Below, one piece after another: positions 14,717-21,997 of a stretch of 64,000 nt of DNA. Positions within the stretch are counted from its first letter, which is position 1. Every line of letters begins with the position of its first letter. A program made the position numbers and the translations under genes. The notes under the pieces were generated by a model. The model was not told where the DNA came from, made no database searches, and saw only the letters and a program-made list of their open reading frames with translations. The stretch comes from Spongiibacter sp. IMCC21906. Its GTDB lineage: Bacteria > Pseudomonadota > Gammaproteobacteria > Pseudomonadales > Spongiibacteraceae. Where the stretch lies: NCBI RefSeq assembly GCF_001010805.1, contig NZ_CP011477.1, positions 1,441,001 through 1,505,000 of the forward strand. The letters are read 5' to 3'.

Positions 14717-16159
14717 TTAGCATTGAAAATGCTTTTCAGAAAAATCGTCCGGATCAAGGTATTCGACGTTGGCGGTTTTAAAGTTGAGATCCACAAACAG
14801 ACGGCAATAGTGCTCGCCGTGACGCCAAGCCATGCTGACACTGGATTTATTGGAGTAATTTAATTCAAAGTGACCGTCAAAGGCGGGGTGCTGGGTGCGA
14901 AAGCGCATCAGCGTTAGCAGCCGTTGTACCACGGGTTGCTGGATGGCTTCGTCAACTTCATCCAGGCTGTAGTAGTGGCGGTTAATGTCTCTAAGCTCGC
15001 CGGTTTCTTCCATCAAGTCATTGTCGTTGCAGCCCGCCAATAGGCCGACGTAGTACACCTGCGGAATGCCAGGGCAAAAAAACTGTATGGCTCTGGCGGC
15101 GATGTAAGCATCGTCGTTTTGCATCAGGGCGTCATAGAAGGTGCAGGTTAGCTGATAGATGGCGCCAACACTGTGAATATTGGCCGCAGAGCGCCGTAGA
15201 ATAGGGTCGGCACTGCGGGCAGAGATATTGTCGATCAGGGCGCGAATTTTATCGTCGGGTAACACGCCTTCAACATCGGGAATGCAAATGCCGTCGTGGG
15301 TGTCCAGCACCGTCACCATATTGCGGGGACACATGCGCAGCCAGTTTTTAAGGTAGACGCTGTTGTTGTCCAGCAGCGAGTACAGCAGCAGCGGTGGCAG
15401 GGCGAAACCATAGGGATGCATATTGCGGCGGCTAATGGCGTATTGATAACTGCTGTGGTCGTGCACTTCGGGTAAGCATTCGGCACCGTGGAGATGGGCC
15501 ACCCCATTTATCCAGTCCAGGTTGCGGTACACGTCTGGCTCAACCAGAAAGCAGCTGGTGCCGATGATTTTAGTGGTGTAGCCAAAGGCGTCCAGGCGAA
15601 ACAGCTTTACCCCTCGCTGGCTGAGAAAACCAATATAGTTTTCCATTAATTGATGGGTGAGGGGGGACTCCCAGTTCAAATCAACCTGATGCTCCGTAAA
15701 GGTGCACCACACTCGACCCTTTTGACCATTGGCAAATTCCACTTCTCGGAAGGGTTCTTTTTCTTTACGAATATGGATCTTGGCCAAGTCGTCGGGGGTG
15801 ATCTCGCCATATTTGTCGACATGAACAAATAGCTCGGCATACTCAGAAGCATAGCCATTTTGGATGAAATCTTTGAACTCAAGGGATTCGTCAGAAATAT
15901 GGTTAACCGTCAGGTCACAACAGAGGTCGTATTTGCTGGAAATGCGCTCTATGTCGTCCCAATCGCCAAATGCGGGGTCGACTTCTTTATGGCTAAGTGG
16001 CGAGAACCCACCGTCGGCATTAGAGGGAAAAAACGGCAGGATATGCACGCCGCCGATAGCATCGCTAAGGTGTTTTTCAATGACGGTATTGAGGTCTTCC
16101 AGATTGTTTCCCAGTCTGTTCGGGTAGCAGATTAACTGCACCGCATTTCGTAATCCCAT
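14717..16159 (-). CDS. Sucrose phosphorylase family glycoside phosphorylase (GH13)
   Basis: This 480-residue cytoplasmic GH13 enzyme has the nucleophile D190 in FRLDAFGY, the acid/base E231 in CLPEVHDH and the stabiliser Asp in LDTHDG (about 286-289). These positions line up with those I know for sucrose phosphorylase. It should cleave an alpha-glucoside with phosphate to give glucose 1-phosphate. Relatives act on sucrose, sucrose 6'-phosphate, glucosylglycerol or glucosylglycerate, and the specificity cannot be read here. No sugar transporter or regulator lies next to it, so turnover of an internal compatible solute such as glucosylglycerol or glucosylglycerate is plausible. The start is supported by GGGGAG upstream. 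Confidence 0.85.
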   Translation of the reverse strand: MGLRNAVQLICYPNRLGNNLEDLNTVIEKHLSDAIGGVHILPFFPSNADGGFSPLSHKEVDPAFGDWDDIERISSKYDLCCDLTVNHISDESLEFKDFIQNGYASEYAELFVHVDKYGEITPDDLAKIHIRKEKEPFREVEFANGQKGRVWCTFTEHQVDLNWESPLTHQLMENYIGFLSQRGVKLFRLDAFGYTTKIIGTSCFLVEPDVYRNLDWINGVAHLHGAECLPEVHDHSSYQYAISRRNMHPYGFALPPLLLYSLLDNNSVYLKNWLRMCPRNMVTVLDTHDGICIPDVEGVLPDDKIRALIDNISARSADPILRRSAANIHSVGAIYQLTCTFYDALMQNDDAYIAARAIQFFCPGIPQVYYVGLLAGCNDNDLMEETGELRDINRHYYSLDEVDEAIQQPVVQRLLTLMRFRTQHPAFDGHFELNYSNKSSVSMAWRHGEHYCRLFVDLNFKTANVEYLDPDDFSEKHFQC

Positions 16160-16406
16160 TCGCTTTTCTCCCCGGCAGCGTCATTTAAAAATAGGTAGAT
16201 GACTAAAGCCATGCAAATACCGTGCAGGGCTGGATGCTTTAAATTTTCGCTGAATAGCTGCGATCATCAGGAATTGCTCTGCAGTGCCAAGAGAATTAGC
16301 GCTGATTGCGCCATACTGACGTATACGGTTTTGCGCTGGCGGCTACGTGCTCAAATGAGTGCTAAGCTAAAAAGGCGTTATTGATAAATAGTTTTATGGG
16401 GGAATT

Positions 16407-17474
16407 ATGAAGCGGCTTTGGCAATCTCTATTTTTGGTGATCTGTCTTTTTCCAATGCTGGCCTCAGCGCAGGACGAAGAGAGTGGGGTACTTAAAGTCG
16501 GGGTGAAAGCAGTTGCACCCTTTGTTGTGAAGAGCGCAACTGGCTGGAGCGGCTTGAGTGTTGAACTGTGGGAAAGCATTGCCCTGCAACAGGGCTGGCA
16601 AACTGAGTGGGTAGAGCTGGATAGCGCCCAATCTCAAATTGACGCCCTGGCCGCTGGCGAGGTCGACGTGGCGGTGGGGGCCTTGTCGATGACCTCTGAA
16701 CGAGAAGCGGTGATGGATTTTAGTCATCCTTTTTTCACCACCGGTCTTGGCATTGCCACCTCAGTGGAAAGCAGCGGCTGGTGGGCTCTCTTGGCGCAAC
16801 TGGTATCACCGGCGTTTTTGAGTGCGGTGGGGATATTGGCGGTGTTGCTTTTTGCAGTAGGCGGTTTGCTTTGGTTGGTGGAGCATAAGCGCAATCCCGA
16901 GCAGTTTGGCGGAAGCTTGTCGCAAGGAATAGGCAATGGTTTTTGGTGGTCTGCGGTCACCATGACTACTGTTGGCTATGGCGATAAAGCCCCTGTTACC
17001 AAGGCAGGACGTTTGTTGGCCACCATTTGGATGTTTGTGTCGGTTATTACTATTTCCAGCTTTACCGCCGCGATTGCGTCATCAGTCACGGTGAACTCCA
17101 TGACTACAGCAGTGACGGGGTTGCAGGATTTAAATCGGGTTAAGACATTAGTGGTTGCGGGGTCTACGGCTCAGCAGGCGTTAACCTTGCGGGGCATTAA
17201 ATCGATAGAGGTGACGACAGCGGAAGAAGGTTTGGAGGCCTTGCGTAATGGCACTGCAGATGCACTGGTGTATGACGAAGCCGTGCTGCGGTATTTATTG
17301 AAAGATGGCGATGCGCAGCTGGAAGTGATTGAGTTTGCCGGAAGCCAGCAAGAATATGCACTGGGTCTGCGAGAAGACTTCCCTCAGCGTGAGGCGCTGA
17401 ATCAAAGTTTGTTAGCGGAGACCCAGGCTGCCAGTTGGCAGATGACTTTGCAGCGATACTTAGGACAGCAATAA
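16407..17474 (+). CDS. GluR0-like ligand-gated potassium channel
   Basis: The protein has 355 residues with signal peptide 1-21 and a split periplasmic-binding domain: lobe S1 about 28-118, S2 about 240-352. It surrounds a pore of M1 (about 138-158), a re-entrant loop and M2 (about 203-224). The loop holds TMTTVGYGD (T188-D193), the potassium selectivity filter. M2 carries SSFTAAIAS, comparable to the SYTANLAAF gate of eukaryotic glutamate receptors. S1 has SMTSERE, including the Arg that binds the alpha-carboxylate of amino-acid ligands. This is the architecture of prokaryotic glutamate receptor GluR0. The ligand is unknown. It is monocistronic, preceded by GGGGGAATT. Confidence 0.88.
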   Translation: MKRLWQSLFLVICLFPMLASAQDEESGVLKVGVKAVAPFVVKSATGWSGLSVELWESIALQQGWQTEWVELDSAQSQIDALAAGEVDVAVGALSMTSEREAVMDFSHPFFTTGLGIATSVESSGWWALLAQLVSPAFLSAVGILAVLLFAVGGLLWLVEHKRNPEQFGGSLSQGIGNGFWWSAVTMTTVGYGDKAPVTKAGRLLATIWMFVSVITISSFTAAIASSVTVNSMTTAVTGLQDLNRVKTLVVAGSTAQQALTLRGIKSIEVTTAEEGLEALRNGTADALVYDEAVLRYLLKDGDAQLEVIEFAGSQQEYALGLREDFPQREALNQSLLAETQAASWQMTLQRYLGQQ

Positions 17475-17519: not shown

Positions 17520-18167
17520 TTAAACGATACTGTCCGTTAAACATTGGATGAGTAGCTCGGCGCAGCGTTGCCCAGCCAAAGTGTGTTTGCCAAACCAGCG
17601 CTGTGGTTTACCGCTGCCACCAATGACCGCAATGCTGTCTGTGCCTGTTCCTGTTGCCAGTTCCCCTGATACTGGGCTGCGAATATTGGCTTTGTGTAAG
17701 ACATGGGCTTTTGCTTCTGTGAGCAGGGTGATGATCTCGGTCATGCTGGCAACGGAAAGCTGCATATTGCTAATACAGACAATGTTAATTGTGCCTGGTG
17801 GCAGTGTGACAGGATTCTGCCAATCTGCAGGGTCGCCGGCGCAACGGGCGTTACTTAAACCGCTGGTCAGGTAAATAGCGAGTCGTTCGCCTTCAATGGT
17901 CGTCTCCGCCCAGCGCAATGAATCCATCGACGCTGCCGTCATCATGCCTACAGTTGTAGCTGTCCAGCCTTGACTGTCAGCGTATTGTTGCAGTGTTTGC
18001 TCGGGTGGTTGCTGGCTATCTGCGCCGCTTACCTTAAGATTTAATAGTCGGTTTGCCTCGCATACGCCACCATTTAATGCGGCGGAGCTGAGGCACCGGC
18101 GAGTGCCCTGCCAATGCAGAGCGAAGTGCTGATCCGCCGGTGTCCAGTGCCAGTCTTGGTCATTCAT
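17520..18167 (-). CDS. cbiZ: Adenosylcobinamide amidohydrolase CbiZ
   Basis: This 215-residue protein matches CbiZ: CLSSAALNGGV near the N-terminus, VGMMTAASMDSLRWAE in the middle, LTSGLSNARCAGDPADW, then a C-terminal NIRSPVSGELATGTGTDS. CbiZ hydrolyses adenosylcobinamide or pseudo-cobalamin side chains to adenosylcobyric acid for salvage of cobamides. It follows cobB by 15 bases and both lie behind a cobalamin riboswitch, which supports the call. No other cob genes are in the window. Confidence 0.9.
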   Translation of the reverse strand: MNDQDWHWTPADQHFALHWQGTRRCLSSAALNGGVCEANRLLNLKVSGADSQQPPEQTLQQYADSQGWTATTVGMMTAASMDSLRWAETTIEGERLAIYLTSGLSNARCAGDPADWQNPVTLPPGTINIVCISNMQLSVASMTEIITLLTEAKAHVLHKANIRSPVSGELATGTGTDSIAVIGGSGKPQRWFGKHTLAGQRCAELLIQCLTDSIV

Positions 18168-18182
18168 TGATATTCATCGGCA

Positions 18183-19460
18183 TCAGTTGTTATTGCAGCC
18201 ATTAAACCAAGCACAAATGGTGTCCGGGTCGGATGAGAAATACCAGTGAACAAAGGATGCCACGGTGTTGCGGTAACGGAAAATGCCTTCACCCACCCGG
18301 CCATCGGCAAACTCGCTGCGTTCTTCCTGCTGGTCATTTTCCAGCTTGGCGTAATGGAAGGTGTGGCCCCGTAACGACGTGCCGGGAAGATGCTGATAAC
18401 CCAGTGCGGCTAAGCGCGGTTGAACGACGGCTTGTTCATTGAACACCCCGAGCATCTCAAATTCTTGTTCGTCGTGTTGCAGAGATTGTTGCAGGTAGAG
18501 CATGCCACCACATTCGGCAACACAGATTTTGCCATCGTGAATGTGAGCGGCGACTGATTCACGCATACTTGTGTTATCGCTCAAGATTTTTGCATGTAAC
18601 TCGGGGTAGCCGCCGGGTAGATACAGCGCGTCGCAGTCTGGAATTTGGCTATCATTTAAAATTGAAAAGAAGCTAACTTCCGCGCCCTGCCGTTGCAGAA
18701 AATCGATGTTGGCGTGGTATAAAAAATTTAAGGCTGGGTCTCTGGCAATGGCAATGCGCTTACCTTTTAGACGTTGTTCGAGGTCTGGTTTTACTGACTC
18801 CAGTAACAGGTCTAATGTTTTCCACGGCAGTTTTTCCAGTGCCGGTGCGAGCTTTTCTGCCATCGCTGCAGCGGCGGGGCCGCCCGTGTCTTTGCCGCCA
18901 TCAATACCTAGGTGACGTTCGTGTACTGCCAGTGCCGGATCGCGATGAATGGCGGTGATCCAGCGAGTAGGGGGACGAATGCTTTCTTCAAGCATACTCG
19001 CATGGCGAGGGCTGCCCACTTTATTGGCCAGCACTGCGACAACATCTACGTCTTCGTCGTATAGGCTTAGGCCGTAAATAAGCGCACCAAAGGTTTGTGC
19101 TTGGGCAGAGGCGTCGGCGACCATTAATACCGGCAGTGCAAAGTCTTTGGCCAATTTGGCTACCGAGTGTTCACCGTCGAATAAGCCCATTACGCCTTCA
19201 ATGAGGATATGGTCGACTTCTCTCGCTCCTCGGGCTAGCTCGCGTTGAATTTCTTCCCGGCTTTGCATCCAGTAGTCCAGCTGTCGCACTTGTAGACCTG
19301 TGGCATGCTCCAAAAAAGCAGGGTCTAAGTAATCGGGCCCCATCTTAAATATACGAACCGTTTTGCCCGAGTCTAATAAGGCCTTTGCCAAGCCGGCAGT
19401 TACCAAGGTTTTACCGTGGCCGCTGCCGGGTGCCGCGACGATTAATGCACTGCCGGTCAT
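18183..19460 (-). CDS. cobB: Cobyrinate / hydrogenobyrinate a,c-diamide synthase
   Basis: The protein has 425 residues. The N-terminal dethiobiotin-synthetase-like ATPase part begins SALIVAAPGSGHGKTLVTAG with FKMGPDYLDP and LIEGVMGLFDG. The C-terminal type-1 glutamine amidotransferase (CobB/CobQ type) has YLPGGYPEL and the nucleophile Cys in VAECGGMLYL, with a late His in ASFVHWYF. It amidates the a and c carboxylates of the corrin ring with glutamine and ATP. CobB (aerobic) and CbiA (anaerobic) cannot be separated by eye. It is the first gene of the riboswitch-controlled cobB-cbiZ operon. Confidence 0.92.
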   Translation of the reverse strand: MTGSALIVAAPGSGHGKTLVTAGLAKALLDSGKTVRIFKMGPDYLDPAFLEHATGLQVRQLDYWMQSREEIQRELARGAREVDHILIEGVMGLFDGEHSVAKLAKDFALPVLMVADASAQAQTFGALIYGLSLYDEDVDVVAVLANKVGSPRHASMLEESIRPPTRWITAIHRDPALAVHERHLGIDGGKDTGGPAAAAMAEKLAPALEKLPWKTLDLLLESVKPDLEQRLKGKRIAIARDPALNFLYHANIDFLQRQGAEVSFFSILNDSQIPDCDALYLPGGYPELHAKILSDNTSMRESVAAHIHDGKICVAECGGMLYLQQSLQHDEQEFEMLGVFNEQAVVQPRLAALGYQHLPGTSLRGHTFHYAKLENDQQEERSEFADGRVGEGIFRYRNTVASFVHWYFSSDPDTICAWFNGCNNN

Positions 19461-21178: not shown

Positions 21179-21997
21179 TTAGCCGTCGGATTTGTGAAAA
21201 TGTACGTCCATTTGCGGGAAGGGGATTTCTATACCTTCGGCATCAAAGCTGTTTTTGATGTCTTCCACAAGCTGCCAGCGCGTGGGCCAGTAGTCACCGG
21301 TGGCAACCCAGGGGCGACAAATTAAGTCAATGGAGGACTGGGCCATTTCATTCACTTTAATGGTGGGGGCTGGGTCTTTCATGATGCGTGTGTCGGCATC
21401 GACCAAGCGTTGGAGTATGTCTTTTGCTTTTTGCATATCGGCGCTGTAAGAAATGCTGACGACGAGATCGATACGGCGGCGGGGCATGACGCTGTAATTG
21501 GTAATTGCGCCAGACATCATTTTTGCATTGGGGATCATAATGCGTTTGTAATCGCCGGTGAGTAAGGTGGTAGAGAATAAGCTAATGCTTTCTACGGTAC
21601 CGGAACAACCGCCGCCCTCTATCCAGTCGCCAACTCGGCAGGGACGAAATGCGATAAGCAGTACCCCAGCGGCAAAATTGGATAACGACCCCTGCAGTGC
21701 TAAACCAATGGCTAAACCGGCTGCGCCTAACGCGGCAATAACGGAAGCGGTTTGCACTCCTACATGAGCTAGTGCCGGAATAATCGTTACTGCCAGCAGC
21801 AAGGTAAAGGTGAGCTTGCTCATGAAGTTAGTGAGGGTTGGGTCAAAGCCGCGATTATTCAGGGTCTTGCGAAGCAAGCCGGAGAAAACCTTGGCGAGCC
21901 AATAGCCGATAAGGACGATGGCCAGTGCACCCGCAATTCGTATTCCTATCGCGCTGGCCTCAGGGCCGTATTGCTCAATAAATCCCTGCAAGTCCAT
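21179..21997 (-). CDS. mscS: Small-conductance mechanosensitive channel (MscS family)
   Basis: The protein has 272 residues, close to E. coli MscS. Three membrane helices: about 17-37, 57-80 and the pore-lining TM3 at about 85-115 with GAAGLAIGLALQGSLSNFA. They are followed by the beta domain with VGDWIEGGGCSGTVESI and the cytoplasmic alpha/beta domain ending IPFPQMDVHFH. It releases solutes on hypo-osmotic shock. It is monocistronic. Confidence 0.93.
   Translation of the reverse strand: MDLQGFIEQYGPEASAIGIRIAGALAIVLIGYWLAKVFSGLLRKTLNNRGFDPTLTNFMSKLTFTLLLAVTIIPALAHVGVQTASVIAALGAAGLAIGLALQGSLSNFAAGVLLIAFRPCRVGDWIEGGGCSGTVESISLFSTTLLTGDYKRIMIPNAKMMSGAITNYSVMPRRRIDLVVSISYSADMQKAKDILQRLVDADTRIMKDPAPTIKVNEMAQSSIDLICRPWVATGDYWPTRWQLVEDIKNSFDAEGIEIPFPQMDVHFHKSDG

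Follow-up and report, generated by a model that had tools for sequence, protein, structure and literature searches.

A predicted GluR0-type potassium channel in Zhongshania and the mechanosensitive-channel genes beside some of its relatives

The channel gene and its domain layout

The window (the whole stretch of DNA analysed here, 64,000 nucleotides from a genome of 3.48 Mb) carries an intact open reading frame at 16407–17474 that is predicted to encode a GluR0-type K+ channel. Its features are as follows.

16407–17474, plus strand: predicted GluR0-type K+ channel gene, 355 aa, ATG start, intact reading frame
16398–16403, plus strand: G-rich run resembling a ribosome-binding site 5' of the ATG, read off the sequence
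16407–16472, plus strand: hydrophobic N-terminus, probable signal peptide, residues 1–22 (hydropathy)
16488–16778, plus strand: S1 half of the ligand-binding domain, residues 28–124 (Pfam, AlphaFold, structural alignment)
16701–16703, plus strand: codon of R99, invariant in 58/58 sequences and aligned to an Arg of NpGluR0 and GluR0
16809–16883, plus strand: M1 helix, residues 135–159 (hydropathy, AlphaFold)
16917–16985, plus strand: pore helix and TVGYGD selectivity filter, residues 171–193 (sequence, Pfam, alignment, AlphaFold)
16968–16985, plus strand: TVGYGD filter itself, residues 188–193 (sequence)
17001–17096, plus strand: M2 helix, residues 199–230 (alignment, AlphaFold)
17058–17093, plus strand: gate-like motif SFTAAIASSVTV in M2, residues 218–229 (comparison with the animal iGluR motif)
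17100–17471, plus strand: S2 half of the ligand-binding domain, residues 232–355 (Pfam, AlphaFold, structural alignment)
17274–17276, plus strand: codon of D290, invariant in 58/58 sequences and aligned to an Asp of NpGluR0 and GluR0

The protein has two basic residues at its N-terminal start and a hydropathy of 1.59 over residues 4–22, and two further hydrophobic stretches (140–158 and 203–221) flank the P-loop. Among the Pfam families, SBP_bac_3 (1e-17) spans residues 29–352, with the pore between its two parts; Lig_chan (8.1e-17), Ion_trans_2 (1.4e-13), Lig_chan-Glu_bd (9.6e-8) and Ion_trans (1.5e-7) also match, all five lying above their curated cut-offs, and four more families match below theirs. 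The hydropathy and Pfam pattern therefore give the order signal-like N-terminus, S1, M1, P, M2, S2. The motif SFTAAIASSVTV can be overlaid on SYTANLAAFLTV of the animal ionotropic glutamate receptors (iGluRs), and M2 fits the animal iGluR motif, SYTANLAAF-LTV. An earlier note on this DNA had described a complete S1-M1-P-M2-S2 protein with a TVGYGD filter and a SYTANLAAF-like M2, and the split SBP_bac_3 match, the hydropathy and the filter at residues 188–193, which has the canonical K+ sequence, bear this out. We confirm that the match of this reading frame to the GluR0-type layout is far beyond chance.

The loop charges say little about topology: the M1-P loop is neutral, with two basic and two acidic residues, while the P-M2 loop has three basic and no acidic residues, a thin cue. 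Between the window channel and the copy in genome G014, pS is 0.75 (saturated) and pN is 0.136, and the sequence comparison indicates that the gene is under purifying selection within the genus.

Predicted structure and ligand site

AlphaFold modelling with 58 sequences returned a mean pLDDT of 90.6 and a pTM of 0.78, with the ligand-binding domain predicted as a split clam-shell. In VIA-align, the top structural rows are the ligand core of GluR0 (1ii5; Z 28.7, rmsd 1.9, 218 residues, 28% identity) and that of NpGluR0 (2pyy; Z 28.7, rmsd 1.6, 211 residues, 31% identity); an engineered glutamine-binding protein comes next at Z 28.3, which is a tie by the rule of the tool. From Z 28.3 down to 25.4 come animal receptor cores and proteins that bind glutamine or other amino acids, and the structural neighbours include binding proteins for Gln, Arg, His and opines as well as AvGluR1 cores with serine and phenylalanine. 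Many transport binding proteins have this fold, so it does not identify the ligand. The top rows in Foldseek come from chains of animal receptors, mostly of the AMPA type, with ligand-binding domain and pore both aligned (TMq 0.50–0.63), and the closest solved sequences are NpGluR0 (2pyy, E 2.7e-25) and GluR0 (1iit, E 4.9e-18). The earlier note had named a prediction lacking the split binding domain as grounds against its reading; the predicted domain is split, and its clam-shell is closest to GluR0.

All 58 aligned sequences are invariant at R99, D290, T220, Y317 and T185–D193 (TMTTVGYGD), the invariance of the filter being somewhat inflated because one of the six patterns used to retrieve the sequences lay in the pore helix. 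The position of S94 is Thr or Ser in 56/58, that of S253 Ser or Thr in 57/58 and that of T254 Thr or Ser in 53/58. We take R99 to be the equivalent of the Arg that binds the alpha-carboxylate and D290 that of the Asp that binds the alpha-amino group; together with S94, S253 and T254 they match the positions that make the alpha-carboxylate, alpha-amino and side-chain contacts in iGluR cores. The most likely ligand is an alpha-amino acid. The comparison of S1/S2 binding residues with GluR0 that the earlier note had proposed gives agreement at R99 and D290, which align to Arg and Asp, and a difference at W47, which faces a Phe in GluR0 and a Leu in NpGluR0 and is kept in 51/58 of the aligned sequences. 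Because of this difference, the ligand may be one other than glutamate.

Gene neighbourhood and distribution

On one side of the channel gene lies a divergent alpha-amylase-family gene (14717–16159), which we take to be sucrose-phosphorylase-like; on the other side lie a convergent CbiZ gene (17520–18167) and then a CobB/CobQ-like gene (18183–19460). The window channel gene is solitary: it shares no operon with an osmotic gene and has no adjoining MscS-family gene.

Several candidate linkages in the window were considered and rejected. For the GH13 gene (14717–16159), relatives of at least 80% identity are present in 15 of 18 genomes of the genus (its own included), far beyond the channel carriers, and in the carriers G002, G004, G009 and G011 these relatives lie elsewhere. 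For the CbiZ and cobB-like genes, the arrangement is kept only in G014 among the six places compared, and cobB-like matches occur in genomes that have no channel; in G012 and G013, panE and the cobB-like gene follow in order without the channel. An MscS gene is present in the window at 21179–21997, but it is no evidence of linkage, because G012 and G013 have an MscS-type match near the cobB-like gene and no channel there.

Eleven of 57 related genomes match the channel at E <= 1e-10, four of them (G023, G034, G036 and G055) over the pore only. The channel proper is found in 6 of 18 Zhongshania genomes (the own genome, G000, with G002, G004, G009, G011 and G014) and, outside the genus, in G042, which belongs to another family. 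At E <= 1e-60 the family profile matches 12/369 genomes of the class and 27/398 of the phylum. In a collection scan, 252 of 323 candidate stretches proved to code for relatives, and the 80 of these that were kept come from many phyla; among plasmid-borne relatives, several carry the annotation of a transporter substrate-binding protein.

In a tree of 117 channels, the window channel groups with the other four intact Zhongshania channels at a starred support of 100. This clade is joined by L019, L020 and L084 at a support of 94, under the starred level, and five of the resulting eight rows are MscS-adjacent. Long branches are seen for L091, L208 and L214; L098 (a broken gene) and L029 (a presumed near-copy of L026) were left out of the tree.

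MscS-family neighbours across the channel family

An MscS-family gene is the immediate neighbour of the channel gene in 7 of 81 loci, downstream on the same strand in L095, L096, L084, L081 and L020 and upstream and divergent in L073 and L097. Several MscS subtypes are represented. The L020 gene is cut by a contig end and has no Pfam match; it matches the L095 protein at 1.6e-108, and a 73%-identical C-terminal piece lies on another contig of the same genome (G093). The L097 neighbour is YbiO-like, with 494 bits against NF008542 (PRK11465), below the cut-off of 596.

The background was set from 149 PF00924 matches in 56 Gammaproteobacteria genomes (about 148 Mb), assuming 0.9 genes per kb. About 0.17 adjacent cases would be expected in this first sample against the seven found (Poisson 8e-10; 3e-8 for six loci with L095 and L096 taken as one, and 1e-6 for five with the genus taken as one), values that are rough because the loci are not independent. 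The 81 loci are those of 85 sources in which the channel gene was called; at the four that the ORF caller missed (L030, L047, L068 and L075), a six-frame scan found no MscS match. The sister channels L017 and L026 have PF00924 matches of 25.4 and 24.9 bits (cut-off 20.2; E <= 1e-3) in the gene just downstream, and these two were kept separate from the seven, since no match below 29 bits enters the background count; the L026 neighbour has no Pfam domain at E <= 1e-5. These are small genes of 210–229 aa (L017:5914-6600 and L026:6098-6727), perhaps a short MscS-like partner.

A second sample comprised 35 loci, 9 from the class and 26 from the phylum, after removal of duplicates and of the own genome (L164, L165 and L199 duplicate L020, L019 and L081). 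Flanks are short at several of them, and L168 is without its upstream side. One of the 35 is MscS-adjacent, namely L167, where the neighbour (PF00924, 58.2 bits) lies 250 bp upstream in the same orientation, against 0.08 expected, which on its own is not significant (P 0.07). The two samples together hold eight strong cases against 0.25 expected, and the Poisson value is 2.9e-7 for six with the genus counted once. Tree and survey therefore place the MscS link most strongly in the window clade and in a few other lineages, and it is absent from most of the family.

Across the class, no co-occurrence of channel and MscK-like gene beyond chance was found: the channel is present in 12/369 genomes and an MscK-like gene in 31/369 (E <= 1e-60, at most two candidates scored per genome), with both in one, G093, where only their adjacency stands out. 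A general conserved operon was also rejected, since no Pfam family occurs in more than two of the 65 upstream or 66 downstream neighbours at E <= 1e-5, with the exceptions of DUF6901 (6) and 4HBT (4), which are taken to reflect Alcanivorax-type clusters; the window, L094–L099, L023 (identical to L022) and L029 were left out of these tallies. In a Desulfuromonadales MAG (L092:1-8999), three MscS-profile matches, one of them weak, lie within 5 kb of the channel, none immediately adjacent.

A channel and MscK/MscM-like cassette in Zhongshania

Two genomes of the genus carry the channel and an MscK/MscM-like gene side by side.

L095:4488-8510, minus strand: two-gene cassette of channel and MscK/MscM-like gene, G011
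L096:7897-11891, plus strand: two-gene cassette of channel and MscK/MscM-like gene, G009 (Zhongshania aquimaris)

The gap from the channel to the MscK-like gene is 3 bp in G011, and the two genes overlap by 4 bp in G009. The partner gene encodes 987 or 980 aa in G011/G009 and has the MscS domains PF00924 and PF21082. The G009 partner scores best with the MscK and MscM models, both below threshold (168.7 and 129.5 bits); because its 168.7 bits fall below the cut-off of 991 for the MscK equivalog NF008438, with only the C-terminal ~220 aa matching, we term it MscK/MscM-like and not MscK. A full-length partner of this kind is present in 2 of 18 genomes of the genus, G009 and G011, with the channel adjacent both times, and the other genus matches listed cover its C-terminal third only.

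The cassette is flanked by a MarR-family gene and a 737-aa gene without a Pfam match, and nine channel-less genomes of the genus were compared at this site. Four are comparable (G016, G017, G003 and G006): the MarR and 737-aa genes lie ~260–300 bp apart there, with neither channel nor MscK-like gene between them. The other five (G005, G008, G015, G010 and G001) likewise have neither gene, but say less because the MarR gene was not found at the place. In G002 (Z. antarctica; L258/L098) the locus is nearly identical to that of G011, with the MscK-like gene gone and a short frame-shifting deletion in the channel gene. From G009 and G011, G002 and the nine channel-less genomes, we conclude that in this genus the two genes share one fate at the site, whether retention or loss. 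The pairing of a GluR0-type channel with an MscK-like gene in two sister genomes is new here, and among the open-licence papers searched we found none on a link between GluR and MscS genes.

Two loci deserve separate mention. That of G002 has the appearance of a recent decay of both the channel and the MscK-like genes. In G004 (L097, 4620–12470, orientation as fetched), the channel lies between the divergent YbiO-like MscS gene and a HlyD-type membrane-fusion gene that starts 45 bp 3' of the channel; an AcrB-type pump gene comes next.

The own genome, G000, holds no MscK-like match at E <= 1e-60 (the best match covers query residues 754–974 only) and seven MscS-family matches. The window locus has lost, or never had, an MscK-like partner gene.

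Proposed mechanism and alternative readings

The window gene is most likely an ordinary, functional GluR0-type K+ channel, as predicted from its layout and modelled fold. In our main reading, to which we give a probability of about 0.82, it would be a homotetrameric inner-membrane channel with an inverted KcsA-like pore, opened when R99 and D290 of a periplasmic clam-shell bind an alpha-amino acid. This clam-shell would arise in the periplasm by joint folding of S1 and S2; on ligand binding, its closure would pull on M1 and M2 and open the pore with its TVGYGD filter, and K+ would flow down its gradient. The tetramer, the inverted topology, the K+ selectivity and the gating by amino acids are features that we infer by analogy with characterised relatives, and the opening amino acid would probably act from outside the inner membrane.

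It is less firm what such a channel would do for the cell. We propose more tentatively that it would let the cell correct its K+ and volume quickly when amino acids, glutamate foremost, are released by the cell itself or by its neighbours under osmotic change; the MscS-family genes that recur beside its closest relatives and the phenotype published for GluR0 speak for this. The closest kin of the window channel suggest an osmotic setting, and the operon with a mechanosensitive channel in the sister species hints at a job in cell-volume control. A more specific proposal, which we regard as rather unlikely, is an osmotic module in the window clade. Under pressure, the MscK/MscM-like channel would release solutes into the periplasm, amino acids such as glutamate included; the GluR-type channel would read the released amino acid, and its K+-selective conductance would adjust K+ and the membrane potential. 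The window gene would then be a derived, partnerless member that works without a dedicated partner, perhaps with another of the seven MscS-family matches of its genome.

Whether the neighbours carry functional meaning at all can be doubted. That the MscS link is coincidence, or the common descent of a few chance arrangements, would agree with the single adjacent case among the 35 later loci (L167; 0.08 expected, P 0.07), with a window locus that has no adjacent MscS gene and whose gene at 21179–21997 is no evidence, and with the class-wide co-occurrence of channel and MscK-like gene, which is no greater than chance (one genome). We nevertheless hold this explanation to be the less likely one, though a real possibility, as 7 of 81 loci stand against about 0.17 expected (Poisson 8e-10, or 1e-6 with the genus once), L017 and L026 have a weaker MscS-type gene just downstream, and several MscS subtypes are involved. 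Within the genus, moreover, only two of the 18 genomes have the MscK-like gene at full length, each time beside the channel, and the pair is absent together at the four comparable sites.

A different question is what the channel senses. It could conduct K+ and yet have a binding domain tuned to a compound other than glutamate (another amino acid, or an opine-like or amino-acid-derived compound), acting as a nutrient sensor and not as an osmotic valve; we put this at only a little under even odds. W47, present in 51/58 of the family and absent from GluR0 and NpGluR0, argues for it, as do the structural neighbours that bind Gln, Arg, His and opines and the AvGluR1 cores with serine or phenylalanine, but R99, D290, S94, S253 and T254 form a general alpha-amino-acid set that would allow glutamate as well. 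Very improbable, by comparison, is a non-conducting sensor or transporter-associated binding protein that has retained a pore-like segment. ABC binding-protein profiles do match S1, and the annotation of several plasmid-borne relatives is that of a transporter substrate-binding protein; against this, TMTTVGYGD and T220 of M2 are invariant in 58/58 sequences, a count biased by the pore-helix retrieval pattern, and there is no ABC permease among the adjoining window genes searched.

Comparison with known systems

On its sequence and model, we assign the window protein to the GluR0-type channels as a new member of Group 1 of the prokaryotic iGluRs. It fits this group by the flanking S1 and S2, the K+ filter, the core fold and the contact residues; as to a signal peptide, it has a hydrophobic N-terminus. 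The presence of TVGYGD sets it apart from Group 2, which has a non-K+ filter. As described by Ger et al. 2010 (PMC2950845), Group 1 is defined by S1 and S2 flanking two helices and a pore loop with a K+ filter. Their study lists 12 sequences, whereas here 27/398 genomes of the phylum match and further loci lie in many phyla. The remark of the earlier note that few such channels are characterised is fair, yet the family was catalogued in 2010 (PMC2950845) and GluR0 has now received a physiological study (PMC13099474).

GluR0 of Synechocystis sp. PCC 6803 (slr1257) shares with the window protein the S1-M1-P-M2-S2 layout, the K+ filter and the ligand-core fold, and both are without an N-terminal domain and without M4. 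It differs in having only 28% core identity, a Phe in place of W47 and a host distant from the gammaproteobacterial one. Zhang et al. 2026 (PMC13099474) place GluR0 in the plasma membrane and show that it mediates K+ uptake in E. coli LB2003 and affects cell volume in KCl upshock; their PhoA fusions, some of whose values were not significant, give an inverted topology. In the discussion they propose that glutamate effluxed under osmotic stress activates GluR0. The view of the GluR0-type pore as an inverted K+ channel is supported by PMC6385376. A cassette of channel and mechanosensitive channel that is present or absent as a pair in close species lends independent genomic support to the glutamate-release idea of PMC13099474, and the cassette-bearing species are strains in which that idea could be tested by deletion.

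NpGluR0 of Nostoc punctiforme (2pyy) has the GSTA motif in S2 in common with the window protein and differs from it in sequence (31% identity over 211 residues). The animal and plant iGluRs have the same arrangement of ligand-binding domain and pore, and a motif, SYTANLAAF, that is similar to that of M2; unlike them, the window protein has no M4, no N-terminal domain and a filter of the K+ type. The window channel can thus be seen as a bacterial cousin of the glutamate receptors of the brain, of a type already known, to which the MscK-like pairing is added here.
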